Below, one piece after another: positions 24,868-58,883 of a stretch of 64,000 bases of DNA (position 1 is the stretch's first letter; each line of letters opens with the position of its first letter). Origin of the DNA: a virus. The notes under the pieces are model-generated. The model did no database searches and was not told the origin of the DNA. It saw only the letters and a program-made list of their open reading frames with translations. The stretch covers positions 62,001 through 126,000 of the IMG/VR virus record IMGVR_UViG_3300030339_001052; one strand, written 5' to 3'. The position numbers and the translations under genes are program-made.

Positions 24868-24900
24868 AAAAAAAGGAGAACTAAACACTCTCCTTTTTTA
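24868..24900. terminator. Bidirectional terminator between convergent genes
   Basis: AAAAGGAGA (24871-24879) and TCTCCTTTT (24889-24897) form a stem flanked by A and T runs, so it can work in both directions. It overlaps the end of the minus-strand nuclease gene. Confidence 0.85.
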
Positions 24901-25984
24901 TTATACCAAATTCAAACAACTTTTCTTCTATATTTTCATCAAATTTAATGATAAGTAAAGGTATTTTGTTATCCTTACAGTAATTAATTTTTATTTTATC
25001 TCTTATTTGTTGAGATTCAAATCCTTTACTACCATTAAATATTAATACTGGTATATAATGTTGTTCTCCATTATATTCAATACAAGTATTTAACGATGGT
25101 ATATAAAAATCAAATGGTAACGGATTAATATTTCGACAATCGCTAAATCTATACTCTAAAATATATTCAATATTTTCTTTATCAAGCAAATTTTTAATTT
25201 CTATTGCGTTTCTCGAAAACTTACATTTTGGACACCCCTTACCAGAAAGATGTCCATGTGGTGTTTGCATAAACATACCATGACTTTCATTTGGGCAAAT
25301 AATTGGTATTTTTATCTTTGCATTTGTGTAATTAACTAAGGTGTAATCATATCTATAATTATGTTTCAAATTTGCTTTTTCAATAAACTCTTCAGTTGTA
25401 TAGTTATTAGTTCCAGCACATTCAATACAGCCATATTTTAAATGATTACTTGGAGTCTGACTAAACATACCGTGTTCTGGACAAATAATATTAACTTTTT
25501 CTTTGTTATTCTTATAATTGGTTAAAGAATAATCGTATTTAAAATTATGCTTAATATTTGATTCAAAAATGAATTGTTCTGTCGTTTTTCTAATATTTCC
25601 CCCACAAACTGGACATCCCTTACCAGAAAGATGGTCAAGTGGTCTCTGTGAAAAAATACCATGACTAATTATAGGACAACAAATGTTAAGTTTAGTCTCA
25701 GAATCAATATAAATTGTTGGAGAATAATCATATTTATAATTATGCTTAATATTAGATATTTCTATAAACTCTTCTGTCGTTCTATAATATCCCAAGCATC
25801 TTGGACATCCAGAACCCTTGTTAATATGTAAGTAAGGCTTTTGCTCAAATATTCCATGTTTTGGGCAAATTATTTTTACTGGCGTATCGCAATTTAAATA
25901 TTCAACTAAAGAATAATCATATTTATTTCCGTGTTTAAGTTTTGCTTTTATAATAAAATCACTTATATTTGAAGCTTTTCCCAT
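24881..25984 (-). CDS. Zinc-ribbon repeat protein with a C-terminal PDDEXK-like nuclease domain (cassette 1), 367 aa
   Basis: Four repeats of about 60 residues fill positions 8-265. Each has the order KHGNKYDYS, then IICPKHGIF, a helix, then GCPRC, so each carries a CxxH/CxxC zinc site; they resemble DUF723-type repeats. The C-terminal 100 residues (FDFYIPSLNTCIEYNGEQHY, DKIKINYC, IPLLIIKF) look like a Vsr/PDDEXK endonuclease fold. The repeats probably bind DNA and the tail cuts it, as in a homing-type nuclease. It follows a ribbon-helix-helix gene by 9 bp and runs against the surrounding plus-strand genes, so the pair looks inserted. Confidence 0.75.
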   Translation of the reverse strand: MGKASNISDFIIKAKLKHGNKYDYSLVEYLNCDTPVKIICPKHGIFEQKPYLHINKGSGCPRCLGYYRTTEEFIEISNIKHNYKYDYSPTIYIDSETKLNICCPIISHGIFSQRPLDHLSGKGCPVCGGNIRKTTEQFIFESNIKHNFKYDYSLTNYKNNKEKVNIICPEHGMFSQTPSNHLKYGCIECAGTNNYTTEEFIEKANLKHNYRYDYTLVNYTNAKIKIPIICPNESHGMFMQTPHGHLSGKGCPKCKFSRNAIEIKNLLDKENIEYILEYRFSDCRNINPLPFDFYIPSLNTCIEYNGEQHYIPVLIFNGSKGFESQQIRDKIKINYCKDNKIPLLIIKFDENIEEKLFEFGIIKKESV

Positions 25985-25993
25985 CCTTTAAAC

Positions 25994-26134
25994 CTATTTA
26001 CTTTTTTCTATTTCTTTAACCAAATAATTTCTAATATTTTGGCTTAGATTAACGCCATTTTCCTTACACCATTTACGGATTGAAAGATATAGCTCTTCAT
26101 CAATTCTAACTAAAATTGTTTTTTCTTTATTCAT
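25994..26134 (-). CDS. Small ribbon-helix-helix DNA-binding protein (cassette 1), 46 aa
   Basis: Found by reading the gap. MNKEKTILVRIDEELY has the beta-strand start of an Arc/CopG-type ribbon-helix-helix, followed by two helices with NGVNLSQNIRNYLV as the turn region. It would dimerise and bind DNA. It lies 9 bp before the repeat nuclease gene on the same strand, the same order seen at 44646 and 58704. Confidence 0.65.
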   Translation of the reverse strand: MNKEKTILVRIDEELYLSIRKWCKENGVNLSQNIRNYLVKEIEKSK

Positions 26135-26143
26135 TTGTTTTTA

Positions 26144-26160
26144 TTGTTTATTATAAATAT
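26144..26160 (-). promoter_or_regulatory. Second-class promoter candidate for cassette 1
   Basis: Minus-strand ATATTTATAATAAACAA keeps the TATTTATAATAAA core and lies about 10 bp before the ribbon-helix-helix gene. Confidence 0.4.
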
Positions 26161-26241
26161 ATACAATTTTAGTTTTTGACCAGTTTTTAAAAAATTATTT
26201 TCATTTATTTTTTATTTAATATAATTTAACACAAGTAAAAC

Positions 26242-26272
26242 TTGTTTTTTATAAATATTATTCGTATATTTG
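26242..26272 (+). promoter_or_regulatory. Bacteroidota-type promoter
   Basis: TTG 26242-26244 in AACTTGTTTT and TATATTTG 26265-26272, 20 bp apart, 28 bp before ATG 26301. Confidence 0.85.
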
Positions 26273-26300
26273 TTTTGAAAGATTAAAATTATTTATAACT

Positions 26301-26693
26301 ATGGAAAAATTAGAAGAAGTCATTGGTTTAGAGCAATATAATAGATTGAATAAAGGTATTCAAAATTTATTAAATATTAAAACAGAAAATTATAATTCCG
26401 TCCTATTATCCCTTGATAATAAAGAATCTGATACAGTATATTTTGTTAATCACGATTCATTCCCATCCTTTGAGCTGGACATTGAAACAAAACAAATAAC
26501 AGATGAGACAATTGGTTATTTTCCAACAGGTTTAGGTTATTATAACCCTATCAAAATATTCAGCCCAATAGCTACCAATGAAAATTTTGAAAGATTATTA
26601 ATGGTTTCAAATGAATATATTTTCGAATTAACAGATGTGTTAATTTCAAAAGAAAATAAAAACCTAACATTTTCATCATCAAAAATTTTATAA
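26301..26693 (+). CDS. Hypothetical protein, paralogue of the one at 26996, 130 aa
   Basis: Soluble, acidic. It shares its plan with the protein at 26996: an N-terminal LEEVIGLEQYNRL helix, a DTVYFVNHDSFPSF strand pair, and a closing FELTDV segment after a helix. The two probably arose by duplication. First gene behind a strong promoter; stop overlaps the next ATG by one base. Function unknown. Confidence 0.55.
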   Translation: MEKLEEVIGLEQYNRLNKGIQNLLNIKTENYNSVLLSLDNKESDTVYFVNHDSFPSFELDIETKQITDETIGYFPTGLGYYNPIKIFSPIATNENFERLLMVSNEYIFELTDVLISKENKNLTFSSSKIL

Positions 26694-26962
26694 TGAAAAC
26701 ATTCAATAAAGAGACAGTTATATTAGTCATTTATGTTGATATCAGTATGCTTGATGCTTTTGATATTCCAGAATATATGGGCTCCGTTTTAAAATATACG
26801 AAATTGGGTGGTAATATCATTCAACACATCATACCAATTTATGGTGAATCCCGTATAGAGTGTGTTTATCCTAAATTTATAGTTTCAGAAGATGAATTTA
26901 ATAGAGTAAACGATGAAATCAAATTAATTGAAGAAAATTTATTAAACATAATAAAAAAATAG
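26693..26962 (+). CDS. Hypothetical protein, 89 aa
   Basis: Sits between the two paralogues, coupled to the first by a TAATG overlap. Beta-strand start (VILVIYVDISML), a helical end. Not recognised. Confidence 0.5.
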   Translation: MKTFNKETVILVIYVDISMLDAFDIPEYMGSVLKYTKLGGNIIQHIIPIYGESRIECVYPKFIVSEDEFNRVNDEIKLIEENLLNIIKK

Positions 26963-26995
26963 TTCCGAACAAATAAATAATTAAAAAAATTACAA

Positions 26996-27400
26996 ATGAA
27001 AGATTTAGAAAAGATTTTTGGCTCAGAACGATTTGGGATTATTAAAAATTTAGTTATCAACCCATTGGAGGTTACAATTTTTAATTCGGTTATTTTCAAA
27101 AAAGATGAAAATGATAATAATCCAATTTATATTACACACACGAATTTACCAGCCATCATTGAAGATGAGAGTGAATTAATTTCGCCATTATCGATAGAGG
27201 AAGCTGAAGATAGTTATATTATTGGTGATTACCTCTGGGACCCAATTGACTACAGTAGTATTATCTTTTCAAATTTAATACCAACTGATGTGTTAGGTGA
27301 TATTATTCTTTTAACAAAAAAACAAGTATTCGAATTAACAAATGTGTCGTTGGATGATGATAGGTTATTTTACGATGAAGCTATTGAATTAAACAATTAA
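26996..27400 (+). CDS. Hypothetical protein, paralogue of the one at 26301, 134 aa
   Basis: LEKIFGSERFGIIKN, then PIYITHTNLPAII and a C-terminal FELTNVSL line up with the protein at 26301. The middle is more acidic (DESELISPLSIEEAEDS). Function unknown. Confidence 0.55.
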   Translation: MKDLEKIFGSERFGIIKNLVINPLEVTIFNSVIFKKDENDNNPIYITHTNLPAIIEDESELISPLSIEEAEDSYIIGDYLWDPIDYSSIIFSNLIPTDVLGDIILLTKKQVFELTNVSLDDDRLFYDEAIELNN

Positions 27401-27419
27401 ATAATAAATAAATACAAAT

Positions 27420-27737
27420 ATGGAAAAAGATTTTGATAGACAAAAAGTACGTACAAAAAATGAGCCTAATTTAGAACTTGCGGATAATACCTTATTGGGG
27501 GATTTCATTTGTAAACTATCAACGGCTGTAAATAAAAATTGTAGTCTATCCACAGACATAGAAGGCATTGTCGGCCTAATTGCCCCAATGGATGAGAGTG
27601 AAATAACAATACATGATAAAATTGATGATTATTATGTCATAAATAGATTAAATGATTTATTATTTATTATTGAATCAGCGAATAGAACACTTGATAACAC
27701 ATTAAATACATTACATAAGATAGTACCAAACAAATAA
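27420..27737 (+). CDS. Hypothetical protein, 105 aa
   Basis: Helical protein with two central Cys, ending in a NRTLDNTLNTLHKI helix. Small bacterial and phage proteins of this type occur but none is assigned. Follows the paralogue pair in the same transcription unit. Confidence 0.5.
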   Translation: MEKDFDRQKVRTKNEPNLELADNTLLGDFICKLSTAVNKNCSLSTDIEGIVGLIAPMDESEITIHDKIDDYYVINRLNDLLFIIESANRTLDNTLNTLHKIVPNK

Positions 27738-27749
27738 ATATATAGTAAA

Positions 27750-28043
27750 ATGAGTTTAAACCCAAATTATATTTATACAACCACAAAATCGAAATCCACA
27801 AGTGAATTATTTGAAATTAATGTACCAGAAGGAAAGCAAATTATTAAAACCGAATTGGAAGATGGGTTGTTAATTACATTTGAAGATATTATTAATAAAA
27901 AAGATAGTGAATATATAACTTTTGGAAATGGTAGAATGTATACTAGAGTTTTCTGGAAAAAAGCGCTTGAAGAATATATAATAAAATTAAAAAATAACCC
28001 TAATTATGGGCCAGTGTATCATGTGAGTGGAACATTTCTATAA
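27750..28043 (+). CDS. Hypothetical protein, 97 aa
   Basis: Beta-rich (IIKTELEDGLLITFEDII) then helical, soluble. Last gene before the terminator at 28065. Not recognised. Confidence 0.5.
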   Translation: MSLNPNYIYTTTKSKSTSELFEINVPEGKQIIKTELEDGLLITFEDIINKKDSEYITFGNGRMYTRVFWKKALEEYIIKLKNNPNYGPVYHVSGTFL

Positions 28044-28064
28044 TTAATGATTACTAATAAAACT

Positions 28065-28103
28065 AATAATAGCTCATAAAAATAAATCTTATGAGCTATT
28101 ATT
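28065..28103. terminator. Bidirectional terminator between convergent genes
   Basis: Perfect 15-bp arms AATAATAGCTCATAA (28065-28079) and TTATGAGCTATTATT (28089-28103), with A/T-rich flanks on both sides. Confidence 0.9.
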
Positions 28104-28128
28104 ATTTTAATATTTAATTCCAGGATGG

Positions 28129-28467
28129 TTAAACCCCTAAAACGGCAGCAATTTTATTGATTTCTTCATCAGAGAATTTATAAACGCCTGTACCATCCTG
28201 TGTTTTTTTCTGGTGTAACTGCTTAAATGCGTGAGATCTCTTTGCATCATCATCAGATTTAAATCCAAGAGCGTTAGACATTACTTGCGTCGCGTTGATT
28301 GTATCGTTCTCTAAAGCTTTTTGAATTGATTTATATTTCTTTTCGTAGTCCTTTGAAACTTCAACATTATCGTTACCTCTTTTTTTCTCATCTTCAGTAA
28401 TAGCCTGTTTAACTAATTTAGTAATTTTAGCTTCCAATAATTTAAGTAATTCTGGGTTAGTACTCAT
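28129..28467 (-). CDS. Hypothetical helical protein in a single-gene minus-strand unit, 112 aa
   Basis: Charged, helical and soluble: EAKITKLVKQAITEDEKKRG, then an EEINKIAAVLG end. It stands alone against the surrounding plus genes with a second-class promoter motif upstream and a bidirectional terminator downstream. The N-terminal LLKLLEAKITKLV resembles the starts of the genes at 8066 and 8840, also behind that motif. Confidence 0.55.
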   Translation of the reverse strand: MSTNPELLKLLEAKITKLVKQAITEDEKKRGNDNVEVSKDYEKKYKSIQKALENDTINATQVMSNALGFKSDDDAKRSHAFKQLHQKKTQDGTGVYKFSDEEINKIAAVLGV

Positions 28468-28475
28468 ATGTTTAG

Positions 28476-28492
28476 TATTTTAATATAAATAG
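28476..28492 (-). promoter_or_regulatory. Second-class promoter candidate (CTATTTATATTAAAATA)
   Basis: Minus-strand copy running 28492 to 28476, 8 bp upstream of ATG 28467. The last 16 bases equal the copies at 16200 and 44817. Confidence 0.5.
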
Positions 28493-28581
28493 TTTAATTA
28501 TTAAAAAAAATAAATAATTGTATGAAATATTTTTAGTTCAGCATTCAGGTTAAATAAAATCGTTATTTTTATGTTTAGAAC

Positions 28582-28612
28582 TTGCTTTTCTCACATTTTA
28601 TCGGTACATTTG
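28582..28612 (+). promoter_or_regulatory. Bacteroidota-type promoter
   Basis: TTG 28582-28584 in AACTTGCTTTTC and TACATTTG 28605-28612, 20 bp apart. It serves the 140-aa gene and the Clp-like ATPase. Confidence 0.87.
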
Positions 28613-28635
28613 TTTTGAGACGATTAAAATAAATA

Positions 28636-29058
28636 ATGGAAAAATTTGAAATGGTTCAATTCCCAATAATAAAGAAAATATCAGCAAAATTATTATCAGA
28701 TGAAATCACATCTTTAAAACCAATGTCACTTGAAGAAGCAGCCAAAGGAAGAGAAATTAAACAATATGATAATAGTTATAATAGTATAGACGAAATAAAA
28801 GATTTTATTATCAAAAAAGTTGTTGAATATAAAGGGTTAAATATAGATTGGGTAGACTACAAAACATATCATTCATTACCTTTTAATTTAGATAAGAATA
28901 TTTATTATATTGATAGGATTGGTAGCCTGGGTATTACTTGTTATAAACCAACAGAACACATTTTAGACCACCCCTATGGTATTGAGATTTGTACTTTAGA
29001 CCCAAGAATCTGGAGTGAAGATGATATTAAAAAGGTGATCACAGAATTAAAAAATTAA
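28636..29058 (+). CDS. Hypothetical protein, 140 aa
   Basis: Soluble alpha/beta protein with FEMVQFPIIKKIS at the start, a basic middle and an acidic end. First gene behind the promoter at 28582 and 3 bp before the Clp-like gene, which suggests it could be an adaptor or partner; nothing in its sequence proves that. Confidence 0.5.
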   Translation: MEKFEMVQFPIIKKISAKLLSDEITSLKPMSLEEAAKGREIKQYDNSYNSIDEIKDFIIKKVVEYKGLNIDWVDYKTYHSLPFNLDKNIYYIDRIGSLGITCYKPTEHILDHPYGIEICTLDPRIWSEDDIKKVITELKN

Positions 29059-29061
29059 ATA

Positions 29062-43183: not shown

Positions 43184-44659
43184 TTATGTTATTATTGATT
43201 CATATGGGTTAATTGGTAATATATCCTTAGAAAATAATTCAGTGCTCCAACGTCTACCCATTCTATATTCAGAATTCTCAACTAATATAAATTGTTCTTT
43301 ATTATAACAATTCAATAACGTATCATTATATACCCAAATAGCTTCAATTTTATTTATTTCCCCATTTGATTTTGATTTTAATGCTCCCATTCTTATATTT
43401 AATTTTCTTGATGTTATTCCAATTTTATAATATTTACCATCATTAATTTTTAAATAATACAATATAGCAGGTTTTTCCCCAATTTTGGGATTTTCAATAA
43501 ATATTGTTGAGTTATAACCCCCAACTAATTTATTATCTTTAATCAATTGTTCAATTCCACATTCAATACACCCTTGTCCCGATAAATGTTTTTGAGCTGA
43601 TTTTGTAAATATCCCGTGCTCAGGACAACATATTTTAATTTTACTTTTTTTATTTTTATAAATTTTTTCGTTTTCTATTGGATATGTATATTTATCCCCA
43701 TGTACGATTTTAATTTGTTCTATAGCATTAGCATAAGATTTTGTTCTATTTTTTGCCGAACTTTCCTTACCGCATTTGGGGCATCCACAGGTATTATTTA
43801 ATAAAATTAAATTTCTGGCAATAGTCTCAAAATTACCATGTTCTGGACAATAAGCCAAAATATTGGTTTTAGTAAGTCCATGCCATTCTCCTATTAACTT
43901 TAATGTTAATCTATCCCCATGTTTATCAAAAACCCTTTTTTTTAAATCATCAAAGCTTACAGGTGGTTTAGGTTTTCTATTTTTGATCGATTTATAAGCT
44001 GAAGATCTATTTTCACTCCAGCATTCCATACAACCATATTTACTATTTAAATGTTTATCTGGTGATTGTGAAAATACTCCGTGTTCTGGGCAAATTATAT
44101 CAACATGTATTTTTGCTGATATATATTCTACTAAAGAATAATCAAATTTATTACCATGTTTTTTAACTGCATTTTCTATAAATTTTTGTTTTTCTGTTTC
44201 ATTTTTATGATCTGTTTCTTTATGAATTTCTTTAAATGAAAAAGCATAACACGATGGACACGGATACTCGGCGTTTAAATGATTTGTTGGTGATTGCTCA
44301 AATACTCCATGTTCTGGACATATAATTTTTACTTTTGTTTTGTAGTGTTGATAGTCAACCAAGGAATAGTCAAACTTATTATTATGTTTTAAATTTGCAT
44401 TATTAATAAAAATATCTTTTTCAATAATTCTTGATTTTTTATTTTTATCATCAATAGCACATTTTGGGCATCCAAAGATATATCTTAAATGATGAGTTGG
44501 CGTTTGGGTAAAAATTCCATGATCTGGACAGATAATATCTACTGGAATTTTAGCTGTTTTAAAATTAACCAAAGAATAGTCAAATTTATTATCATATTTT
44601 AAATTTGCATTCTTAATAAACGTTGCTTTTCTAATTTCTATATTATTACTTCTGGGCAT
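43184..44659 (-). CDS. Zinc-ribbon repeat protein with a C-terminal GIY-YIG-like nuclease domain (cassette 2), 491 aa
   Basis: Five repeats of 55-75 residues cover positions 10-380. Each has KYDNKFDYS or similar, then IICPDHGIF and a CPKC pair; the fourth is the most divergent. The C-terminal 105 residues begin ILYYLKINDGKYYKIGITSR and end with a WSTELFS block, a T5orf172/GIY-YIG arrangement, not the PDDEXK type found in cassettes 1 and 3. The array is thus the constant part and the nuclease is exchanged. It overlaps the ribbon-helix-helix gene by 14 bp. Confidence 0.75.
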   Translation of the reverse strand: MPRSNNIEIRKATFIKNANLKYDNKFDYSLVNFKTAKIPVDIICPDHGIFTQTPTHHLRYIFGCPKCAIDDKNKKSRIIEKDIFINNANLKHNNKFDYSLVDYQHYKTKVKIICPEHGVFEQSPTNHLNAEYPCPSCYAFSFKEIHKETDHKNETEKQKFIENAVKKHGNKFDYSLVEYISAKIHVDIICPEHGVFSQSPDKHLNSKYGCMECWSENRSSAYKSIKNRKPKPPVSFDDLKKRVFDKHGDRLTLKLIGEWHGLTKTNILAYCPEHGNFETIARNLILLNNTCGCPKCGKESSAKNRTKSYANAIEQIKIVHGDKYTYPIENEKIYKNKKSKIKICCPEHGIFTKSAQKHLSGQGCIECGIEQLIKDNKLVGGYNSTIFIENPKIGEKPAILYYLKINDGKYYKIGITSRKLNIRMGALKSKSNGEINKIEAIWVYNDTLLNCYNKEQFILVENSEYRMGRRWSTELFSKDILPINPYESIIT

Positions 44660-44816: not shown

Positions 44817-44833
44817 TATTTTAATATAAATAC
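44817..44833 (-). promoter_or_regulatory. Second-class promoter candidate for cassette 2
   Basis: Minus-strand GTATTTATATTAAAATA (44833 to 44817), 21 bp before ATG 44795. Confidence 0.48.
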
Positions 44834-44879: not shown

Positions 44880-44910
44880 AAAAAAGAGTTTACCAGTTAA
44901 GATAAACTCT
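44880..44910 (-). terminator. Terminator after the NadV-like gene
   Basis: Arms GAGTTTA (44886-44892) and TAAACTC (44903-44909); on the minus strand the stem is followed by a run of eight T. It ends the NAD operon and separates it from cassette 2. Confidence 0.85.
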
Positions 44911-44930: not shown

Positions 44931-46598
44931 TTACGCTTTATTTATCTTTTCCCGAATTTCTGTTAAAGTTGTCCTTGAGATAAACTCTCCATTTTCAAAG
45001 ATGAGTTTTAATTCGCCTTGTCCTTCCTCTTCCCACGTACATTCATTTTTCAACTTATATGACCCATCAGAATCTTTATAAACTTGAAGTAAACCTTTAG
45101 CTGACTTTTTTAGCCCACGGTCTGTAACTGGATCTTTAAATATATTAACTCCAATTGTTTCAATCTCATTTGTTAAATCATTTATTTTTTCGATTTCGAT
45201 AAATGTGGATTTTACAGCCCCTCCTTGATTATCGCGTGTACAGTAACCCATTGAAAATGATCCAGTTCCAAGCGTTATATTAGTAGTCGCAAAGCCTTTT
45301 TCTTTTAGTCTCTTACATATTTGTTCTGCCCTGTCCAGTGTAATGGCATCTCCGTAAACGCACCCGATAAATTTTGAAAGAACTTTAAAACCTTGATCAT
45401 TTATATTACCTCCAAATATATCCCAAAGTAATTCAACTAACCCTTTATTCTCAGATATTGGTTCTATTTGGTTCCATGTACAATCAAGATATCCAAATCC
45501 TTTTGGTGTAAGTTCAAAATACACTTTATCAGATGTAACAATAAATTTAGCCCCATCTTTATTCTCATGAATATTCATTAAAGTGTAAACTTCTTTATGT
45601 GCTTCTGAATCAATAACTAAATCAGATGATTTAAAATCTACTTGGTATGCGTTTCCACAGATAATATCCACTGGATTCCCCGAATCAGGGCGGATAATTA
45701 ACTTACCATCACGAGCAAGAATTGATTCTTTTAATTCTGGTAAAAATTTTGTCACAACTTGCCAAAGATCATATTGGTCTGATACTACAGATAATAATCC
45801 AGTTGGGAATATTTTGATAAGCCTTTTAAACCCATCTATCTCATTTTCTTTTCCATAGGATGTCATACAGCTATGTTCAGAGGCTGGTATACTGAATCCA
45901 ATATTCCTATCACCATAATAATAAGCTACCGATTGTAATGCTGGAATAGTATCAGTTCCCCAAAATGAGGTTAAAAATCCCATACTTGAACTAATTGCAG
46001 CTTCAGGATGTTGCATTCCGCGAAAACTGAAATCGTGGGCTTGAAAGTTTACTCCAAATAAATTTTCTTTATCAGTTTCTTCAGCATTTTTTAGTAAAAT
46101 TTGTTTATAAGCATAAGCCATAGATGCAGAGTGTATAGTTTTCCAAATTAAACTAGAAACTAAGGTCTCAAGAAAATTAGTTAGCCAAAAGAAATCAGGG
46201 TGAGTATTACATATTGTTAGCATTGGGATATTTTCTCCAATTATAGTACCTTCTGGTAAAGCTTTAACCCTGATTGGTAAATAGCCTAAATCATATAATT
46301 TTTCAAAATGTGTAACATCAAAATCAGTACTAAGATATTGTGATAAAAATTCTTTAGCCTCACCAATTACTTTTTCTTTTGGTTGTCCAAAAAAATTGTT
46401 GTCATATAAGTCTTTAATATATTGGATCGTATATTGAATACCGAATACAACTATTTTCTTTGCCTGATCTGGCATTCTGGCTACATTTCTGGTAGTATAG
46501 TTAGAATATACTAAACTGGTACCTTCGGTGTACATTTTTACATGAGAAGTCTTGTATCCATCTTCCATTAGAAGAGGATTTTGAATTAATTTTGTCAT
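44931..46598 (-). CDS. NadV/NAMPT-like nicotinamide (phospho)ribosyltransferase, 555 aa
   Basis: Full-length NAMPT family: start NPLLMEDGYKTSHVKMY, FGIQYTIQY, the central FQAHDFSFRGMQHPEAA, the phosphate-binding IRPDSGNPVDI, and LGTGSFSMGYCTRDNQGGA. In classical use it joins nicotinamide and PRPP to NMN. In published phage NARP1 systems a NadV-like protein (Namat) instead joins nicotinamide to ADPR-pyrophosphate, giving NAD+ directly. The upstream Prs-like gene at 47580 fits either route. Last gene of the operon, followed by a terminator. Confidence 0.88.
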   Translation of the reverse strand: MTKLIQNPLLMEDGYKTSHVKMYTEGTSLVYSNYTTRNVARMPDQAKKIVVFGIQYTIQYIKDLYDNNFFGQPKEKVIGEAKEFLSQYLSTDFDVTHFEKLYDLGYLPIRVKALPEGTIIGENIPMLTICNTHPDFFWLTNFLETLVSSLIWKTIHSASMAYAYKQILLKNAEETDKENLFGVNFQAHDFSFRGMQHPEAAISSSMGFLTSFWGTDTIPALQSVAYYYGDRNIGFSIPASEHSCMTSYGKENEIDGFKRLIKIFPTGLLSVVSDQYDLWQVVTKFLPELKESILARDGKLIIRPDSGNPVDIICGNAYQVDFKSSDLVIDSEAHKEVYTLMNIHENKDGAKFIVTSDKVYFELTPKGFGYLDCTWNQIEPISENKGLVELLWDIFGGNINDQGFKVLSKFIGCVYGDAITLDRAEQICKRLKEKGFATTNITLGTGSFSMGYCTRDNQGGAVKSTFIEIEKINDLTNEIETIGVNIFKDPVTDRGLKKSAKGLLQVYKDSDGSYKLKNECTWEEEGQGELKLIFENGEFISRTTLTEIREKINKA

Positions 46599-46626
46599 TT
46601 TATTTTAGTTTTTTTATAATTTTAAT

Positions 46627-47583
46627 TTAATAATTAGATAATAATTTACTTGGGTGAACTGAGTTCACGCCGATTGATTTATATTTTTCAAGCACTTGGT
46701 GGTCATCATCAACAACCATACAATCACATACATTTAACTTAAGTTTTTTAATTAGCTGTTGTAGAAATACGTGTTTGTACTTACGGTTTCCAACAAAGTA
46801 TATGTTTTCCATTTTGATAAAATTTGCATTCCAATAAAGCCATTCCATTTTTTCGTTATTAGCAATACTATTTGGGGAAGCGCTGACAACATAAATTTCT
46901 TTACCGCTATCAGATAGTTTTTTAATTTTTTCAATAACTTCTTTTACTGGTTTCCCTTTCAGGAAAACCGAATATTGAACGAAGTCAATATTACCATATG
47001 TATCAGCTTGTAAATTCTGATATTCAGCAAGGGTTCCGTCCAAATCCACAAATATATGACTGTCAGTGAAGTAGTCAACCTGTTCAAACTCATCCGCTAA
47101 CAGTTTTAATTTCACAACAGATACTTGTAGTTTATATGCCTTATCAATGATAGCATCGGCTTTTACAAAACGTTCACCATATTCATACCTATATTGGTTT
47201 CTTTCAATACATACTTCAACTGGTGTATTGATAAAAACAACCTTGATATGATAATCTAACTTTTTTAATTCAGCAATGATATTAACAGTATAGTTATTAT
47301 TAATACCACCACCATCCATAACCAAATTGAATCCTCTTTCAGCAACTTCAAACACCTTTTCTTTTGCCAATTTCACACATTCTTCATGAATTAACTCTGG
47401 GTGTTCTGGGTCATAGTCTGGATGATTTAATCTAATTTCATCTGCTGAAACCAATACATATTGGTTTTCTTGCAAAATAAAAATTTTACCTAGTGAACAG
47501 CTGTTAACAACTGAAAGTTTGGATTCTATAAGTTTAGTTTTCCCACTTCCTGGCAATCCAAGCATAAATATTGCTTCTTTCAT
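46627..47583 (-). CDS. Polynucleotide kinase/phosphatase-like protein, 318 aa
   Basis: The N-terminal kinase has Walker A GLPGSGKTK (residues 9-17) and VSADEIR, GFNLVMDGGGIN and IERNQYR elements. The C-terminal HAD phosphatase has the FVDLDGTLAEY nucleophile motif (about residue 178), VVSASPNS and a closing VVDDDHQVL. The kinase-then-HAD order equals T4 Pnkp, which heals 5'-OH and 3'-phosphate RNA ends. It lies between the Prs-like and NadV-like genes, which could also mean a nucleotide kinase for that pathway. Confidence 0.75.
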   Translation of the reverse strand: MKEAIFMLGLPGSGKTKLIESKLSVVNSCSLGKIFILQENQYVLVSADEIRLNHPDYDPEHPELIHEECVKLAKEKVFEVAERGFNLVMDGGGINNNYTVNIIAELKKLDYHIKVVFINTPVEVCIERNQYRYEYGERFVKADAIIDKAYKLQVSVVKLKLLADEFEQVDYFTDSHIFVDLDGTLAEYQNLQADTYGNIDFVQYSVFLKGKPVKEVIEKIKKLSDSGKEIYVVSASPNSIANNEKMEWLYWNANFIKMENIYFVGNRKYKHVFLQQLIKKLKLNVCDCMVVDDDHQVLEKYKSIGVNSVHPSKLLSNY

Positions 47584-48407
47584 AGTTTTAAATTAAATAT
47601 TTTTACTCGTTCATTTTCAATATTACATCTGCTGTCAGTTGTAAATATCATTTCAAATTCTTTTAATAAGTCTTCAACTGGATCACTAAAACCACCGTTA
47701 TTTAAAACTCCGTGAGAAATTGCTAGATAACACTTGTTTTTAATCTGTGTTTTTATTTTCAAAAATGTTCGGCCACCCAAAGCAATATCATCTAAAATCA
47801 AAACAGTTTTATTTTCATCAAATACAGGAACTTTTGTTGTAATTTCACCATTATCTCTGGATTTTGAACACGACTCAATTTGTCCTTGAAAATTAATTTT
47901 CTTACATAATTTAAATATTTTTTTGTAAGAACCAGCATCGGTTGCGAGAATGATCATATCTTGTTCAGCAATGTCATTCTTGTTTAAAATATAATCTAAA
48001 ACATTCTCAACGAATTCCGAATTATCAATCACCTCACAATTATTTAATAATGCTGGAGTAACCTCCGAATGAGGATCGAAGACATACACTTTATTTAATT
48101 CCATCGAATTAATTAAGTTACAAACAGTTTTCAGGCTGAAACATTCGCCAACACCAAAATTTCTATCCGCTTGTTGATATGCCATATATGGAATAAACAA
48201 ATTTATTTTAACACGATTATTATCTTTTTTAATTGTATCAACAACCAATAATAGAAACATAATATCATCTGAAGATTTTAAATTCGCTTTTATTGTTATA
48301 TCTTCAATAATTCTAATTTTTAATTGAAAATGAATTTCACCTCCTGGAAATTTCCAAGCCTTATACTGCAAATTCTCGCAGATCCCGTTCGTTAAATCTA
48401 ATACCAT
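47580..48407 (-). CDS. Ribose-phosphate pyrophosphokinase-like protein (Prs or Adps-like), 275 aa
   Basis: Follows the Prs fold: WKFPGGEIHFQLK near the start, LFIPYMAYQQADRNFGVGE (flexible loop region), VYVFDPHSE (metal-binding His/Asp), and the PRPP loop VLILDDIALGGRTF near residue 220. Prs makes PRPP from ribose 5-phosphate. The phage NARP1 enzyme Adps, usually annotated as Prs, instead adds pyrophosphate to ADP-ribose. It overlaps the kinase-phosphatase gene by 4 bp. Confidence 0.82.
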   Translation of the reverse strand: MVLDLTNGICENLQYKAWKFPGGEIHFQLKIRIIEDITIKANLKSSDDIMFLLLVVDTIKKDNNRVKINLFIPYMAYQQADRNFGVGECFSLKTVCNLINSMELNKVYVFDPHSEVTPALLNNCEVIDNSEFVENVLDYILNKNDIAEQDMIILATDAGSYKKIFKLCKKINFQGQIESCSKSRDNGEITTKVPVFDENKTVLILDDIALGGRTFLKIKTQIKNKCYLAISHGVLNNGGFSDPVEDLLKEFEMIFTTDSRCNIENERVKIFNLKL

Positions 48408-51977: not shown

Positions 51978-51989
51978 AATTTGATTAAT

Positions 51990-53056: not shown

Positions 53057-53105
53057 ATTATTAATTTTTTATCCCCTCGGATCGGGATTTATTTTAATTT
53101 CACAA

Positions 53106-53136
53106 CAAATGTACTGATAATAATTTAATAAAACAA
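53106..53136 (-). promoter_or_regulatory. Bacteroidota-type promoter for the NAD-linked operon
   Basis: Minus-strand TTG (53136-53134) in AACTTGTTTTA and TACATTTG (53113-53106), 20 bp apart. It probably drives the 8-kb run down to the terminator at 44880. Confidence 0.85.
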
Positions 53137-53192
53137 GTTTTAGGCTAACTTTTTGTTTAAAAAAATTCATTTAAAGCGATAATATTAAGTAT

Positions 53193-53507
53193 ATGGGGTT
53201 CATTTATCTAATAAACGAGGCTGGCACTTCCAATTATAAAATTGGAGTAACAAAAGCCAAAACAGTCAACAAAAGAAAGTTAGAGCTTCAAACTGGGAAT
53301 TCTAATGAACTTATTTTGTGTAGAAAGTTTGAAACAGATTATCCATATAAGTTAGAAAATATGCTACATAATCATTATCATTTAAAACGGTTGATGGGGG
53401 AATGGTTTAATTTAACCGATGCTCAGGCAACAGATTTTATAAACATCTGTGAGTCTAAACATCGGTTAATTAGGTATTTATTGGAGAATAATGAATTTTA
53501 TAACTAA
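53193..53507 (+). CDS. T5orf172/GIY-YIG-like single-domain protein, 104 aa
   Basis: FIYLINEAGTSNYKIGVTKA near the start, NKRKLELQTGN, and GEWFNLTDAQA near residue 76 are the usual marks of the T5orf172 branch of GIY-YIG nucleases. It is the only plus-strand gene in this part and overlaps the 3' end of the next minus gene by 4 bp. It looks like a free-standing homing-type nuclease or its remnant. Confidence 0.72.
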   Translation: MGFIYLINEAGTSNYKIGVTKAKTVNKRKLELQTGNSNELILCRKFETDYPYKLENMLHNHYHLKRLMGEWFNLTDAQATDFINICESKHRLIRYLLENNEFYN

Positions 53508-53752
53508 GTTGTTTTTGGAAATATTTTTTTAGATAGGTTATATATAGCAAATTGATTTTTAACATCGGTAATTGAAGAATCCAAGGTATCATTGTGATTA
53601 CCTTTTTTAGTTATAAATCTTGGAATCCCATTCTCTAATATGATTAATCGAACCTTTAATCTATTTTTAGGACCTATTTCAATTACAATACGTAAATTAG
53701 AACTTTCTTTAATCCAATTTAACCAAATTTGGTTTTCTTCTGAAATATTCAT
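53504..53752 (-). CDS. Hypothetical protein, 82 aa
   Basis: Small beta-rich soluble protein (LRIVIEIGPKNRLKVRLIIL). It converges on the GIY-YIG gene. Not recognised. Confidence 0.5.
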   Translation of the reverse strand: MNISEENQIWLNWIKESSNLRIVIEIGPKNRLKVRLIILENGIPRFITKKGNHNDTLDSSITDVKNQFAIYNLSKKIFPKTT

Positions 53753-53804
53753 TATTTTTAGTTTTTATAATATATCTAATATATAAGCGTGACAAATTAA
53801 TTGT

Positions 53805-54035
53805 TTATTCAAAGCTTTTTATCCAATTTTTAGCTTTTCCAGATATTTTATTTGTAAATATGATAGCAGATCTTTCAGATTTAAACACTTCATATTCTCC
53901 TGTTAATTTTATCATAGCTGACCAATACCCATAATTACGTTCTTCCAATTTATCACCAAATTCGTTGGTTAAAGTATTATAATGGGTAGTTGTTAAATCT
54001 CTTTTTTGGTTAATTAAACGATCTCTATTTTTCAT
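53805..54035 (-). CDS. Hypothetical protein, 76 aa
   Basis: Basic, charged N-terminus (MKNRDRLINQKRDL), then a YWSAMIKLTGEYEVF region. Separate from the next gene by 12 bp. Not recognised. Confidence 0.5.
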   Translation of the reverse strand: MKNRDRLINQKRDLTTTHYNTLTNEFGDKLEERNYGYWSAMIKLTGEYEVFKSERSAIIFTNKISGKAKNWIKSFE

Positions 54036-54047
54036 ATGTCTAATTGA

Positions 54048-54263
54048 TTAAATAATTGTATATTCACATGCTGTTTCATTAATTTCAACAGATTGACCAG
54101 GTTTTAGTTTTGATACTGATAAAACATATTCTTTATATGTTGGTTGTAGACACCCATAATGCGGCTCATTATCCCTATAATCGTATTCTTCCTCTATCTC
54201 TTTTTTTAATTCTTCGTAAGTGTAGGTATTTATGATTTCTTCATAAGATTCATCGTTGTACAT
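54048..54263 (-). CDS. Hypothetical acidic protein, 71 aa
   Basis: Very acidic first half (YEELKKEIEEEYDYRD), then a Cys and Tyr-rich part. Not recognised. Confidence 0.5.
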   Translation of the reverse strand: MYNDESYEEIINTYTYEELKKEIEEEYDYRDNEPHYGCLQPTYKEYVLSVSKLKPGQSVEINETACEYTII

Positions 54264-54280
54264 AATTTAAATTTTTATTA

Positions 54281-55429
54281 TTAATTTTCTTCGTCGTTCA
54301 AAACAACATATATGGACATTCCAAGGTTAAATACGAATATTATTATTAACGTCCACATAAATTGAGTTCCTGTTAATTGAATATCAATATAATTGAAGTC
54401 TTTAAATTCTTTTCTTTTCCAGTATTGTGGTATCGCTGCTTTTGTCCAATTAGCAAATTCTATGAAATCTAACTTTTCCTTACCATTAAAATATGATTTT
54501 AAATTAACCTCATATGTTGGTTTATCGCACCAAGAAAATGCATCAACCCACAAAATTTTTTTACTTGTGGAATCCAAACAAATGCAAGTAACCAACTCGT
54601 TTTTATTTCCACCCTCCCAATAACTCCTTTGATCTTGAACTATCGAAAGTGGTTTATTATAAAATACCAGATTATAGGTTCTAAACTGATTTCTATGACC
54701 ATAATAACCATTAATGAATCCCCATTGGACTAATTCATCCTTTGATGGTTTATACCCCAAAAACGGGCTTTGATTTGAGTCGTTATCGCTATTGAAAAAC
54801 CCACCATTGCTTTGGTTATATAAACTTGGATAATCATATAATCCCAATATTTTCGCTTCATCTGGCGTTATATTTTCAAATCCAAATATAGATTTGGAAC
54901 CTTTTATTTTATTCTCATATTTATGGTCGATTGTTCTAGTTTTTGAGTGACTTATATTACCGTCCCATAATTTTGAATAACAATCACCATCTTGCGAATC
55001 GTAATTTCGATGCATATCAATAAATGAATTTTCAGTATTCCAAAGTGAGAATAAACGATTATATTCCTTATTTGAAATACTATACTCATAACCATTATTC
55101 AATGTTTGCTTCCATTCAGGTCCATGATTTTCAACATAGGAACAATCATAAGACTCAGTTGTTTGGTTCTTACCGCTACCAACTGTTCTTGTACAAGTTC
55201 TATGGATATATTCATCCCAAGGTTCATAATATTTTATTCCAGTCACATAATTACCATAATATTCTGTATCTGAAGTTGTATATGAAATCATCCCGAAATA
55301 TAAACACCCAGCAATAAACATCGATGGAAGTACAATAATAAGATATTCCCACCATACAACCTTCTGTCTAAAAAAGACAAGAAGGAAGATGGCGAAAATA
55401 AGAGGTATAATAAACGCTATGGTTGTCAT
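54281..55429 (-). CDS. Membrane protein with a large extracytoplasmic-like domain, 382 aa
   Basis: Two N-terminal transmembrane segments (residues 3-20 and 28-48), a soluble Tyr/Asn/Trp-rich region of about 300 residues with several Cys (RTCTRTVGSGKNQTTESYDC), and one C-terminal segment (FMWTLIIIFVFNLGMSIYVV). Similar membrane proteins next to LemA genes occur in Bacteroidota phages as I recall. It probably works with the LemA-family protein encoded 12 bp upstream. Confidence 0.6.
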   Translation of the reverse strand: MTTIAFIIPLIFAIFLLVFFRQKVVWWEYLIIVLPSMFIAGCLYFGMISYTTSDTEYYGNYVTGIKYYEPWDEYIHRTCTRTVGSGKNQTTESYDCSYVENHGPEWKQTLNNGYEYSISNKEYNRLFSLWNTENSFIDMHRNYDSQDGDCYSKLWDGNISHSKTRTIDHKYENKIKGSKSIFGFENITPDEAKILGLYDYPSLYNQSNGGFFNSDNDSNQSPFLGYKPSKDELVQWGFINGYYGHRNQFRTYNLVFYNKPLSIVQDQRSYWEGGNKNELVTCICLDSTSKKILWVDAFSWCDKPTYEVNLKSYFNGKEKLDFIEFANWTKAAIPQYWKRKEFKDFNYIDIQLTGTQFMWTLIIIFVFNLGMSIYVVLNDEEN

Positions 55430-55441
55430 AAATTGATGTTA

Positions 55442-55972
55442 TTATAATTCAACGTTATCATCAATACCAGATACCATTACTTCTTTAGTTCTAGTGCTTG
55501 AAATGGTAGTATACTGAATATGTGTCTTATTAGTAATAAAGAATTTACTTGGTATAGTACTTAATAACGTTTCATGCTGACGAATAATATCCAACATACG
55601 CGTCTGCTGTGTCACAAACCCTTGACGTTCGATATTTATGGCATCCATAACGCGAGTATACATTTGAGGTGATAACGTTGGATTTTGCTCAACAACCAAT
55701 TTCATCAAACTACCATCACCTTTAGCATATCGGCCTTCCATAATACCTTTAACGGTTTCTTTAAAATCAGATGAATAACTGTTTTTAACCTCATTCGTCT
55801 GGTGAATAACTTTCCACATATTATCATAAACAATTTCCACTTTTCCACGTTGTGCTTCAGCTTCTTTTCGAATTGATACATCCTGGTTGTTATAATTAAA
55901 ATACATTGCGGTATAAATAACACCACCAAAAATCAAAATACCCAATACAATAGCTGCAATAATTTTTCCCAT
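55442..55972 (-). CDS. LemA family membrane protein, 176 aa
   Basis: One N-terminal transmembrane segment (residues 3-24) is followed by the LemA helical hairpin: NQDVSIRKEAEAQRGKVE, YDNMWKVIHQTNEVKNSY, and VMDAINIERQGF. It presents a coiled domain outside or on the membrane. LemA function is unclear in bacteria; in phages it may remodel the host envelope. Pairs with the membrane protein downstream. Confidence 0.8.
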   Translation of the reverse strand: MGKIIAAIVLGILIFGGVIYTAMYFNYNNQDVSIRKEAEAQRGKVEIVYDNMWKVIHQTNEVKNSYSSDFKETVKGIMEGRYAKGDGSLMKLVVEQNPTLSPQMYTRVMDAINIERQGFVTQQTRMLDIIRQHETLLSTIPSKFFITNKTHIQYTTISSTRTKEVMVSGIDDNVEL

Positions 55973-56024
55973 TCTTTTTCTTTTTTTAATTTATAGTTTA
56001 TATTAATTTTATTTAATTCTGGTA

Positions 56025-56055
56025 CAAAAGTAATGTAATTTACTTATTAATGGAA
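56025..56055 (-). promoter_or_regulatory. Weak promoter candidate for the LemA gene
   Basis: Minus-strand TACTTTTG (56032-56025) fits TAnnTTTG, but at the 20-bp distance the upstream box reads TTC, not TTG. Confidence 0.35.
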
Positions 56056-56056
56056 A

Positions 56057-56305
56057 TCACTTAACAATTTTTTCGATATCTTCTTTATTAAATACGATAT
56101 TCCCTTTATATTCTGAACATGCCCAATATATTTTAGTATAGTCCATTAAACCTTCGTAATGGCAATCATTACAACGAGGATATCCTTGATTTCTATGTAT
56201 ATAATCAGTTATTTTTACAATTACAATACTCGTTTTATCACTTCCGCATTTTGGACATGCGGGGTGGTTTTCTATTGTTAAAGAGGTGAAATCTTTTCTA
56301 CTCAT
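56057..56305 (-). CDS. Small zinc-ribbon protein, 82 aa
   Basis: HPACPKCGSDK (residues 14-24) and YPRCNDCHYEG (about 42-52) give one four-Cys zinc ribbon. The layout resembles Lar-type antirestriction proteins of phages, but length and spacing leave it open. It overlaps the RlaP-like gene by 4 bp. Confidence 0.55.
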   Translation of the reverse strand: MSRKDFTSLTIENHPACPKCGSDKTSIVIVKITDYIHRNQGYPRCNDCHYEGLMDYTKIYWACSEYKGNIVFNKEDIEKIVK

Positions 56306-57438
56306 TGTTTAATTTCTTCATTTAATATTTCATCAATTATTTTATTAGAATCAAATGGAAGGCTTTTGGTTGATATTATATTAATATCATCAATTGGCAT
56401 TTTCCTAATCTTAAGTAATAATTCTTTTACAAATAGTGGATCAACTTTTTCTGGTAAATTTGATTTATCATACAATTCCTGTAAACCAGCGATATCGCGT
56501 TCTGCATCTTCAATTATTTTATCTAAAGGAACTTCACCACGTTTGATTGAAAGTAAATAGTCGGCATTTGGGCGTTTAACGGTAAAAGTGCCTGTAGTGG
56601 CAATCGAAACCCCCACATCGATGAGCCTCCGACAATGCAATAGGTTCTTACCATCTATAAATGAACCACTTAGAGTTTGTCCGTGCTTTTTAACATCAAC
56701 ATATCTTTGGGTGTTCCTATTTTTTAACCATTCATTATACTCCTTCCACTCCTTCATGAACTTTGAATATGCTTCAACATTATAATATATCATCACAAAT
56801 GGCGTTTCTCCTTTTTTAATAGATGACAATCTAACCTCATTACTATTTTCACCAATTATTCCTCTATAACCATCATTATTGTAATCATAATAAACGGCAT
56901 AACAATCTTTCATATGATCCAATCGAACTAAGCCACATTTTTCTTGTAATAGCCCATTGTCGTTCAAATATTCTTTAAAAGAATATGTTTTACCATTATT
57001 ATAAAAATATATAAAATCTAAAGGTGTCTTTAATTTATAATCATTTTCATTGTAATTTAATTTTTTACCCAACGAATTTGCCTTTGAAATCTGACTGTAA
57101 CCATATGAAGTAAAGGCATTTGCGCATTTTTTTGTTACAAACACATCCCTATTTTCACGTATTAGTTCAAATTGAGGTGATGTATGTAAAATATATTCAT
57201 CATCAGAAAATAGCAATTCTAAACAGGTCGGATTTCCGACAGAACATAATTCTAAAAATCGACGAACCTCATAGTACGTTTCATCTTTAGTTACATTAAT
57301 TTGCTCGGTATAGCCAAATGATAATAAATTATCAATAGGGCATAAAAAAATACCCTTTTTATCTAAATCACTGGTTTCAATATTTGTACCATAAGCAACG
57401 CTACCAACAATAGCTTCAAAAATTAAATTTTCAATCAT
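56302..57438 (-). CDS. RlaP/YcgL-like nucleotidyltransferase, 378 aa
   Basis: IVGSVAYGTNIETSDLDKKGIFL (residues 11-33, GS and D-x-D) is the catalytic start of the DNA-polymerase-beta superfamily branch found in phages and in RNA-repair operons (RlaP). The VGNPTCLELLFS and YSQISKANSLGKK helices also fit. It probably adds nucleotides to RNA ends; the substrate is not known. It overlaps the cassette-3 nuclease gene by 8 bp. Confidence 0.75.
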   Translation of the reverse strand: MIENLIFEAIVGSVAYGTNIETSDLDKKGIFLCPIDNLLSFGYTEQINVTKDETYYEVRRFLELCSVGNPTCLELLFSDDEYILHTSPQFELIRENRDVFVTKKCANAFTSYGYSQISKANSLGKKLNYNENDYKLKTPLDFIYFYNNGKTYSFKEYLNDNGLLQEKCGLVRLDHMKDCYAVYYDYNNDGYRGIIGENSNEVRLSSIKKGETPFVMIYYNVEAYSKFMKEWKEYNEWLKNRNTQRYVDVKKHGQTLSGSFIDGKNLLHCRRLIDVGVSIATTGTFTVKRPNADYLLSIKRGEVPLDKIIEDAERDIAGLQELYDKSNLPEKVDPLFVKELLLKIRKMPIDDINIISTKSLPFDSNKIIDEILNEEIKQ

Positions 57439-58717
57439 AAATTTCTTTATTTAATATTTCTTCTATATTATTAAATTCCGTATAAGGAATTCTAATTAAC
57501 TTAATATTATTATCAAGGCAATATTGGGTTTTTATTTTATCATTTCTTTGAATTGATTCAAAACCTTCTATTCCACCAAATCTATCTACTTGTTTATAAT
57601 GTTGTTCCCCATCGTATTCAATACAAGTATTATATTTAGGAATATAAAAATCAAATGGGAGAGAATATTTATATCTACAATCATCAAATTTATGTTCCCG
57701 AATAAATTTAAGTTTAAAATTTGTTAATGTTTGATTTACAATTTTTTCACCTTTACTTTCATTACATTTAGGACATCCCTGACCTTTTAAATGATTATGA
57801 GGTGTTTGCCAAAATTCTCCGTGAATAGGGCATATTATTTTAACCTTTATATTGGTTCCTTTATATTCTACCTTTGAATAATCATATTTATCTCTATGAA
57901 TTAGTTTTGTTTTTTCAATAAAATAATTATAATCCATATAACTACCTGAACACTTAGGGCATCCTTTACCATCTAAATGACTATTTGGTGTTTGCCAAAA
58001 TTCGCCATGAATCGGGCATGTTATATCTACTTTAATTATTGAATTTATGTAATCAACATTTTCATATGTGAATTTATTATTATGTTTTTCTTTAGATTTT
58101 TCAATGAATGTATCTAAATCCATAAAGTTTCCGCCACATTTAGAACATCCATAACCAATCATGTGTGAATTAGCTTTTTGATAAAACTCCCCATGTTCTG
58201 GGCAAACTATACATACGTCACTCTCACTATTTACATAATTAGTCTTGGAATAATCATATTTAAAATTATGTTTTTTATTAGATTTTTTAATAAAGTATTC
58301 AGTATTATTAGTTTTGCTTAAAGATCTATTAACATTTCCACACATAGAACATCCCCTACCTTGTAAATGATCACTTGGTGTTTGCCAAAATTCACCATGT
58401 ATAGGACAAATGATACATACTTTAGTTTGAGCATTTTTATAATCTATCTTAGTATAATTATATTTATCTCCATGTATCACAATTGCTTTAGAGATAAAAA
58501 TATCATTGTTGTGCCTAAGTTTATCACTTTTTAATTTTATTCCACATTTGTTACACCCATTACCCACCAAATGGGAATTTGGTAATTGTAAAAATTCGCC
58601 ATGTTCTGGACAAATTATGATTACTTTGATATTTGATTTTACATATTCAACCAGTGAATAATCATATTTGTCACCATGTTTTGCTTTTGCTTTTTTAATA
58701 AATTCATCTTTCGTCAT
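57431..58717 (-). CDS. Zinc-ribbon repeat protein with a C-terminal PDDEXK-like nuclease domain (cassette 3), 428 aa
   Basis: Five repeats cover residues 5-325. Each has KHGDKYDYSLVEY, then ICPEHGEF, a helix with a conserved xxSHL, and a GCNKCG-type pair. The C-terminal 100 residues (FDFYIPKYNTCIEYDGEQHY, KIKTQYC, IKLIRIPY) are very close in plan to the tail of cassette 1. It overlaps the ribbon-helix-helix gene by 14 bp and the RlaP-like gene by 8 bp, so it is embedded in a transcription unit. Confidence 0.77.
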   Translation of the reverse strand: MTKDEFIKKAKAKHGDKYDYSLVEYVKSNIKVIIICPEHGEFLQLPNSHLVGNGCNKCGIKLKSDKLRHNNDIFISKAIVIHGDKYNYTKIDYKNAQTKVCIICPIHGEFWQTPSDHLQGRGCSMCGNVNRSLSKTNNTEYFIKKSNKKHNFKYDYSKTNYVNSESDVCIVCPEHGEFYQKANSHMIGYGCSKCGGNFMDLDTFIEKSKEKHNNKFTYENVDYINSIIKVDITCPIHGEFWQTPNSHLDGKGCPKCSGSYMDYNYFIEKTKLIHRDKYDYSKVEYKGTNIKVKIICPIHGEFWQTPHNHLKGQGCPKCNESKGEKIVNQTLTNFKLKFIREHKFDDCRYKYSLPFDFYIPKYNTCIEYDGEQHYKQVDRFGGIEGFESIQRNDKIKTQYCLDNNIKLIRIPYTEFNNIEEILNKEIYD

Positions 58718-58883
58718 TCTTTAAATTGTTAATACTCTTATTTTCTTCACACCATTTTCTAATAAAATTAGAAATCATTTTAGATCTATTAAAACCAAAT
58801 TCATCACTAATTTTAATAAAATCATATTTTAGATCTGGATCAATCGTAAAATTAATTGTTGTTTTTTTATTTTTCATATTCAT
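58704..58883 (-). CDS. Small ribbon-helix-helix DNA-binding protein (cassette 3), 59 aa
   Basis: Found by reading the gap. KTTINFTIDPDLKYDFIKIS is the strand and first helix; EFGFNRSKMISNFIRKWCEE the second helix. ATG 58883 gives the longest frame; 58877 is an alternative. It overlaps the nuclease gene by 14 bp, equal to cassette 2. A TATTTATA motif lies just upstream. Confidence 0.65.
   Translation of the reverse strand: MNMKNKKTTINFTIDPDLKYDFIKISDEFGFNRSKMISNFIRKWCEENKSINNLKNDER

Follow-up and report, generated by a model that had tools for sequence, protein, structure and literature searches.

Three gene pairs on the minus strand of the window

The DNA analysed here, referred to as the window, is a stretch of 64,000 nucleotides (positions 62,001 to 126,000) of the IMG/VR virus record IMGVR_UViG_3300030339_001052. 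It carries three pairs of open reading frames (ORFs), each composed of a short gene for a ribbon-helix-helix (RHH) protein followed by a gene for a nuclease with an array of zinc-finger repeats (Table 1). The pairs had been described in a prediction made from the sequence alone, and their coordinates, their location on the minus strand and the 14-bp overlap of the two genes in copies 2 and 3 were all confirmed. In copy 1, the two genes are separated by a 9-bp gap. When the whole 147-kb virus record was searched with an RHH profile, no RHH gene beyond these three was detected. A gene similar to T5 A1 adjoins copy 1, and its closest matches are found in Maribacter and Flavobacterium phages, which suggests that the virus is a T5-like phage of Bacteroidota.

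Table 1. Predicted features of the three cassettes, and RHH loci of other viral sequences sorted by the gene or arrangement found there
Feature	Position or locus	Strand	Support
RHH protein copy 1, 46 aa	25994-26134	-	ORF; Arc-like PHROG 582 (E 8e-5)
Zinc-finger-array homing endonuclease copy 1, 367 aa, 4 repeats	24881-25984	-	DUF723/DUF4379; PHROG 559 (E 1.8e-100)
EDxHD/Vsr-like end of array nuclease copy 1	about 24884-25222	-	
TATTTATA box before RHH copy 1, possible promoter element	26152-26159	-	
RHH protein copy 2, 49 aa	44646-44795	-	ORF; Arc-like PHROG 582 (E 0.014); family profile
Zinc-finger-array homing endonuclease copy 2, 491 aa, 5 repeats	43184-44659	-	DUF723 (E 1.7e-24); PHROG 681 (E 5e-71)
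T5orf172/GIY-YIG-like end of array nuclease copy 2	about 43187-43492	-	
TATTTATA box before RHH copy 2, possible promoter element	44825-44832	-	
Terminator-like hairpin and T-run between NAMPT and cassette 2	44880-44909	-	arms GAGTTTA...TAAACTC, then T8
RHH protein copy 3, 59 aa	58704-58883	-	ORF; AlphaFold2 model; Foldseek CopASO/CopG/Arc
Zinc-finger-array homing endonuclease copy 3, 428 aa, 5 repeats	57431-58717	-	Pfam; PHROG 559 (E 3e-102); AlphaFold2; Foldseek 1vsr
EDxHD/Vsr-like end of array nuclease copy 3	about 57434-57763	-	
TATTTATA box before RHH copy 3, possible promoter element	58891-58898	-	
GIY-YIG/NUMOD3 or GIY-YIG behind RHH	L480, L482, L485, L491		Pfam and PHROG
EDxHD without zinc array behind RHH	L484		Pfam and PHROG
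Endo VII-type behind RHH	L490, L494		Pfam and PHROG
HNH-like ORF behind RHH	L498		recognised by eye only
Array nucleases behind RHH	L499, L501, L502		
Second RHH gene (RHH-B), divergent	L013, L060, L106, L107, L121/L122, L213, L217, L365		
Second RHH gene (RHH-B), in tandem	L055 (twice), L214		

Predicted fold of the small proteins

All three small ORFs matched the Arc-like repressor family PHROG 582 (for copy 3 with an E-value of 1.8e-4), and copy 1 also matched DUF6290 and CopG_antitoxin in Pfam, both below the cut-off. Comparison of the RHH family profile with the PDB yielded a match to CopG (E 3e-4). In the AlphaFold2 model of copy 3, the core reached a predicted local distance difference test (pLDDT) score of about 95, with the strand unpaired in the monomer model, and a Foldseek search with this model returned CopASO, CopG and Arc as the best matches (probability up to 0.99). 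These four lines of support agree with the fold originally proposed, and the proteins of 46, 49 and 59 aa are accordingly predicted to be RHH proteins with a beta-alpha-alpha fold of about 45-55 aa. RHH proteins of a held-out set (described below) independently matched CopG, NikR, ORF56 and 2kel, with a best E-value of 2.5e-7. The possibility that the small genes are chance ORFs was ruled out by their recurrence and their fold. In L493, L488 and L495, an RHH domain forms the N-terminal part of larger phage proteins (about 134-420 aa), which are not located before homing-endonuclease genes.

The nucleases belong to known kinds of homing endonucleases

The numbers of zinc repeats, previously given as four, five and five, were upheld by motif search and repeat alignment, with repeat 4 of copy 2 being degenerate. 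The repeats match the Pfam families DUF723 and DUF4379. For the nuclease of copy 3, AlphaFold2 produced a model with a five-fold repeated fold and a pLDDT of 89.7. Its C-terminal end resembles E. coli Vsr (1vsr; Foldseek probability 1.00, template modelling score normalised by target 0.52) and has all conserved E/D/E/H/D positions. The ends of copies 1 and 3, which match PHROG 559 and 9084, had been called PDDEXK-like; this is right in a broad sense, given the Foldseek match to 1vsr. The GIY-YIG-like assignment of the end of copy 2 is supported by a T5orf172 score of 19.9 bits, just below the cut-off of 20.0, and by homology to ICP1 gp174, a protein named as a T5orf172 homing endonuclease (31% identity over 88%). 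When the array and the nuclease ends were used as queries, PDB sequence searches gave nothing useful. Based on these similarities, copies 1 and 3 are predicted to be EDxHD/Vsr-like and copy 2 a T5orf172-type member of known homing-endonuclease groups, with predicted homing activity.

Such nucleases are widespread, and 1527 records of a named-phage collection match copy 3. Repeated CapR/DUF723 fingers and domain swapping have been described for T5orf172 endonucleases (PMC10448857), and PMC12350094 describes thousands of relatives in which three to five CapR-like domains precede an EDxHD/Vsr-like end. The modular array with exchanged nuclease ends is therefore a real architecture, as the original prediction had it, but it is not a new one. 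Two further candidate nuclease genes of the same virus have no RHH partner: a stand-alone T5orf172/MUG113 protein of 104 aa in the window (53193-53507), and a 160-aa EDxHD-type ORF amid apparent structural genes (L500:1415-1897, positions 22914-23396 of record G000).

RHH genes accompany a minority of array nucleases

We collected array nucleases from viral contigs and removed near-duplicates, which left 225 clusters with readable upstream DNA. An RHH ORF with its stop codon at -9 to +23 nt relative to the start of the nuclease was present in 16 of the 225, and two more RHH-bearing array loci (L078 and L259) were recognised by eye. Locus L097, which is identical to the window over 7.1 kb (100%), represents the same virus and was not counted as an independent one. 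The two-gene unit thus recurs, as had been proposed. The small partner is not constant, however: it is diverse in sequence, is not tied to the zinc array, and accompanies only about 7% of the sampled array clusters, a biased value because some of the queries were RHH-bearing relatives. Both ICP1 gp174 and its homologue of Vibrio 10AMN are without an RHH gene. No protein in which the RHH domain and the array are fused was seen, although no systematic search for one was made.

The pairing was replicated in another collection, using only the RHH protein as query. A tblastn search of 2.3 Gb of named phages found a nuclease behind the RHH gene only in LR756501.1, a phage of 735 kb, and in its duplicate LR756503.1. 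The RHH gene of LR756501.1 directly precedes an array nuclease, and a divergent second RHH gene is located upstream. At another site of this phage (L483:1287-2896), a DNA methyltransferase-like gene directly follows an RHH gene, and an EDxHD-type nuclease is encoded nearby on the opposite strand.

On a tree of the nucleases, the presence of the RHH gene required at least 12 changes for 15 RHH-bearing tips (mean of shuffled trees, 14.5). The RHH state is scattered over the tree, so the gene has been gained, lost or exchanged more than once.

RHH genes also precede other nuclease families

The association was then examined in a held-out set of 20 RHH loci, detected with the RHH profile in 20 whole virus records and located away from the starting cassettes by which the records had been picked. 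A homing endonuclease was found directly downstream in 11 of them (Table 1); with the classes assigned manually and a background of 3-5% endonuclease genes assumed, the binomial P is <1e-9. The families include ones without a zinc array, and at a further locus (L125) the RHH gene is paired with a SANT-like/EDxHD enzyme. The pairing is hence broader than first described.

At two loci (L481:797-1919 and L486:981-2748), divergent RHH pairs were observed before proteins built of short W-T-rich repeats (phrog_20046), in which no nuclease was recognised. These proteins may be homing endonucleases of an unknown type or nuclease-less derivatives. At L497:455-1439, an RHH gene and the start of a SANT-like homing-endonuclease gene are truncated by a TnpB-type (IS200/IS605-like) gene.

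The RHH front end is exchanged and moves with the nuclease

Many loci carry a second RHH gene, RHH-B, next to the first (RHH-A), in either divergent or tandem orientation. When divergent, RHH-B usually comes first, ahead of a neighbouring phage gene, and in L372 and L365 it overlaps or lies near the DNA polymerase gene. Within one phage (G015), the loci L217 and L485 share a module of RHH-B, promoter and RHH-A over 449 bp with 80% nucleotide identity. The nucleases behind this module are an EDxHD array in L217 and a GIY-YIG/NUMOD3 enzyme in L485, between which no similarity is detectable. The RHH front end is thus exchangeable between unrelated nuclease families.

This exchange bears on the idea that the RHH protein forms part of the nuclease as a DNA-binding subunit, providing specificity or recruitment at the homing site on which both would act, in the way NikA/ArtA-type RHH proteins serve relaxases. 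The strict gene order and the overlap suggest that the two proteins are made in matched amounts, and A2/A4 members of the RHH proteins are weakly similar to NikA-like and ArtA RHH proteins. Nevertheless, in one phage near-identical RHH pairs precede nucleases whose DNA-binding and catalytic domains are unrelated, the majority of homologous arrays manage without an RHH protein, and the zinc array would already offer a long DNA-binding surface, judging from the model. We therefore regard a role as nuclease subunit as unlikely.

A second alternative is a toxin-antitoxin or immunity pair, in which the free nuclease would be toxic and the RHH protein would neutralise it or shield the resident DNA. 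RHH folds are common in antitoxins, the Pfam matches include RelB, CcdA and CopG_antitoxin, and the antitoxin-first gene order is present. However, type II antitoxins have a toxin-binding C-terminal region, and the proteins of 46-59 aa are hardly more than the RHH core and have no such tail. In addition, nucleases of unrelated folds share one RHH type as their partner, and related nucleases do without it, which makes this explanation quite improbable.

At the DNA-polymerase locus, the presence of the genes varies between viruses. No nuclease is found in L371, a nuclease alone is present in L109 and L370, and RHH-B, RHH-A and an array gene are present in L372-377 and L365. RHH genes occur there only together with the array gene. 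The array gene of L372 has lost its catalytic end and was hence not used as an active allele, and the nuclease genes at this site may stem from more than one lineage.

Joint movement was observed in one phage. In L078, the RHH and nuclease genes sit between two 84%-identical copies of the 180-bp 3' end of a helicase-like gene, as expected if both came in one event. A clear insertion scar is visible (L078:1952-4876), where the ORF of the homing endonuclease is fused in frame to the second copy of the helicase-like gene end. The view of the cassette as a unit is borne out by this locus.

For the copies in the window, the search for empty sites gave no exact junction. Related phages have an A1 homologue without an adjoining nuclease, as looked for at copy 1, but with different neighbours. 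Among 80 NAMPT loci examined for copy 2, one fragment of a homing-endonuclease gene, no conserved downstream gene and no exact junction were found, and a scan with the RlaP-like gene next to copy 3 gave no relatives. In L334:4998-6957, a T5orf172-type homing endonuclease related to copy 2 has left a remnant that splits the NAMPT gene, which suggests that NAMPT is a target of the copy 2 lineage. An insert of about 930 bp, possibly an intron or a homing-endonuclease gene, also disrupts a NAMPT gene in L352:5001-7433.

A promoter motif upstream of the RHH genes

The motif GACTTT-N1-8-TATTTA(A)TATATA was found in 10 unique contexts in 3.7 Mb, all of them at RHH genes and before several nuclease families. 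Of the occurrences of its core box TATTTATATATA alone, 12 are at RHH genes and 47 at other places (Fisher P 1e-9). The GACTTT part may serve either as an operator or as a -35 box. A similar promoter is retained in L109, where RHH genes are absent. Each RHH gene of the window is preceded by a TATTTATA box; the box alone is common, with 45 occurrences in the window, so it is weak evidence by itself.

A proposed autoregulated homing-endonuclease operon as the best explanation

We lean towards the explanation that each locus is a mobile homing-endonuclease operon in which the RHH gene comes first and acts as an autoregulatory, exchangeable front end, comparable to CopG-RepB. The anatomy is that of CopG-RepB: a small RHH gene first, an adjoining or overlapping enzyme gene, and promoter-like boxes upstream. 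Among the roles offered earlier for the small protein (repressor, specificity factor or antitoxin), that of a repressor fits best; a specificity factor is weakened by the near-identical RHH proteins before unrelated nucleases and an antitoxin by the bare RHH core.

In such an operon, the zinc-finger array would guide the nuclease to a site in a phage genome without the element. The nuclease would cut there, and repair of the break would copy in the whole unit of promoter, RHH gene and nuclease gene. The RHH protein would be made first from the common mRNA, with translation of the nuclease coupled to it. An RHH dimer would then bind an operator at the operon promoter and repress this promoter, so that the level of the nuclease would stay low and its production be timed, much in the way that CopG restrains RepB. 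Where the larger form occurs in other phages, a second RHH gene in divergent orientation stands before the displaced neighbour gene, and the front end may set expression both ways.

Several observations weigh against this explanation. No RHH gene was found with more than 90% of the sampled array nucleases, so it is not required for the mechanism. The copies in the window contain only the TATTTATA part and not the full motif, and they carry RHH-A only. The TTGACT stretch within the motif may be no more than a -35 box, and palindromes and direct repeats near the RHH promoters were at or near shuffled levels in these AT-rich regions. In copy 1, the first catalytic-type Glu, kept by 38 of 40 relatives, is replaced by Ala, and judging from this substitution the enzyme may be catalytically impaired. 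Both the choice of the held-out records and the classification of their loci were manual, and array-linked examples served as seeds for the RHH profile.

Moreover, the remaining nine of the 20 held-out RHH genes do not lie directly before a recognisable endonuclease. In some of them the RHH domain is part of a larger fused protein; in others the neighbour is a structural gene or a methyltransferase, the contig ends, or an endonuclease lies on the wrong side. The two RHH pairs before phrog_20046 proteins also belong to this group. As these occur in the same phages, the RHH proteins could be general phage regulators behind which homing-endonuclease operons happen to insert, and the linkage would reflect hot spots instead of a shared unit. 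The free-standing homing endonucleases of T4, which often borrow upstream promoters, are in line with this idea (PMC2988022). On the other hand, RHH matches within the NAMPT, polymerase and reference loci (1.6 Mb) were detected only at homing-endonuclease cassettes, at the polymerase locus the RHH genes appear only with the array gene, and in L078 the RHH gene lies inside the inserted segment. General regulators thus seem very unlikely to account for the linkage, and an autoregulated operon is preferred.

A wider proposal, on which we are evenly divided, is that unrelated phage homing-endonuclease families share a travelling, swappable front end of one or two RHH genes with a dedicated promoter/operator. 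Its two-gene form would also take over the displaced neighbour gene, for example that of the DNA polymerase, and help the element to persist.

Genes around cassettes 2 and 3

The genes flanking cassettes 2 and 3 (44931-48407 and 56302-57438) are NAD-rebuilding and RNA-repair genes: NAMPT, a PNKP-like kinase/phosphatase, a Prs-like gene and an RlaP RNA-repair nucleotidyltransferase.

Meaning and comparison with known systems

Few selfish genes of phages are commoner than free-standing homing endonucleases. If a separate, swappable, repressor-like module were indeed common to several of their families, it would add a new layer of control and could explain how a harmful cutter is carried in many copies. 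The RHH gene and the promoter motif would also serve as a sequence tag for new homing endonucleases, including types without a known nuclease domain. In the open-access literature, as far as its accessible text goes, no description of an RHH partner of homing endonucleases or of its regulatory role was found; such absence is not proof of novelty. Of the cassette originally presented as undescribed, the array with its exchangeable nuclease is already published, and the RHH front end appears to be the undescribed part.

Copies 1 and 3, which are phage-encoded and have four to five repeats of about 60 aa and a C-terminal Vsr-like domain of about 100 aa, resemble in this the nucleases in the available text of PMC12350094. 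The examples given there reside in group II introns with no RHH partner described, whereas the genes reported here are free-standing and lie behind an RHH gene. Copy 2 resembles ICP1 gp174 in its repeated DUF723 fingers and predicted T5orf172-type end (PMC10448857). Unlike copy 2, gp174 has no RHH gene upstream, and the word "ribbon" is absent from that paper.

Type II toxin-antitoxin pairs with RHH antitoxins likewise have a small RHH gene first and a larger, overlapping gene second; they differ from the present loci, where the toxin-binding tail is missing, the partner is a homing nuclease and the RHH gene is optional. In a review on T4 (PMC2988022), several homing endonucleases appear as promoter-less cassettes that borrow the promoters of their host operon, and the only repressor documented there is I-TevI, whose expression is repressed at its own promoter. 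I-TevI represses itself by its own DNA-binding domain, whereas here a separate RHH protein would do so. The closest counterpart is the autorepressed CopG-RepB operon of plasmid pMV158, in which a 45-aa RHH gene comes first and is cotranscribed with the gene of a DNA-cutting enzyme (PMC5717011). Among PDB sequences, CopG also matches the RHH-A family best. RepB, however, initiates replication of the plasmid and has no relationship to homing endonucleases, and autorepression, which was demonstrated for CopG, is what we infer for the RHH proteins described here.

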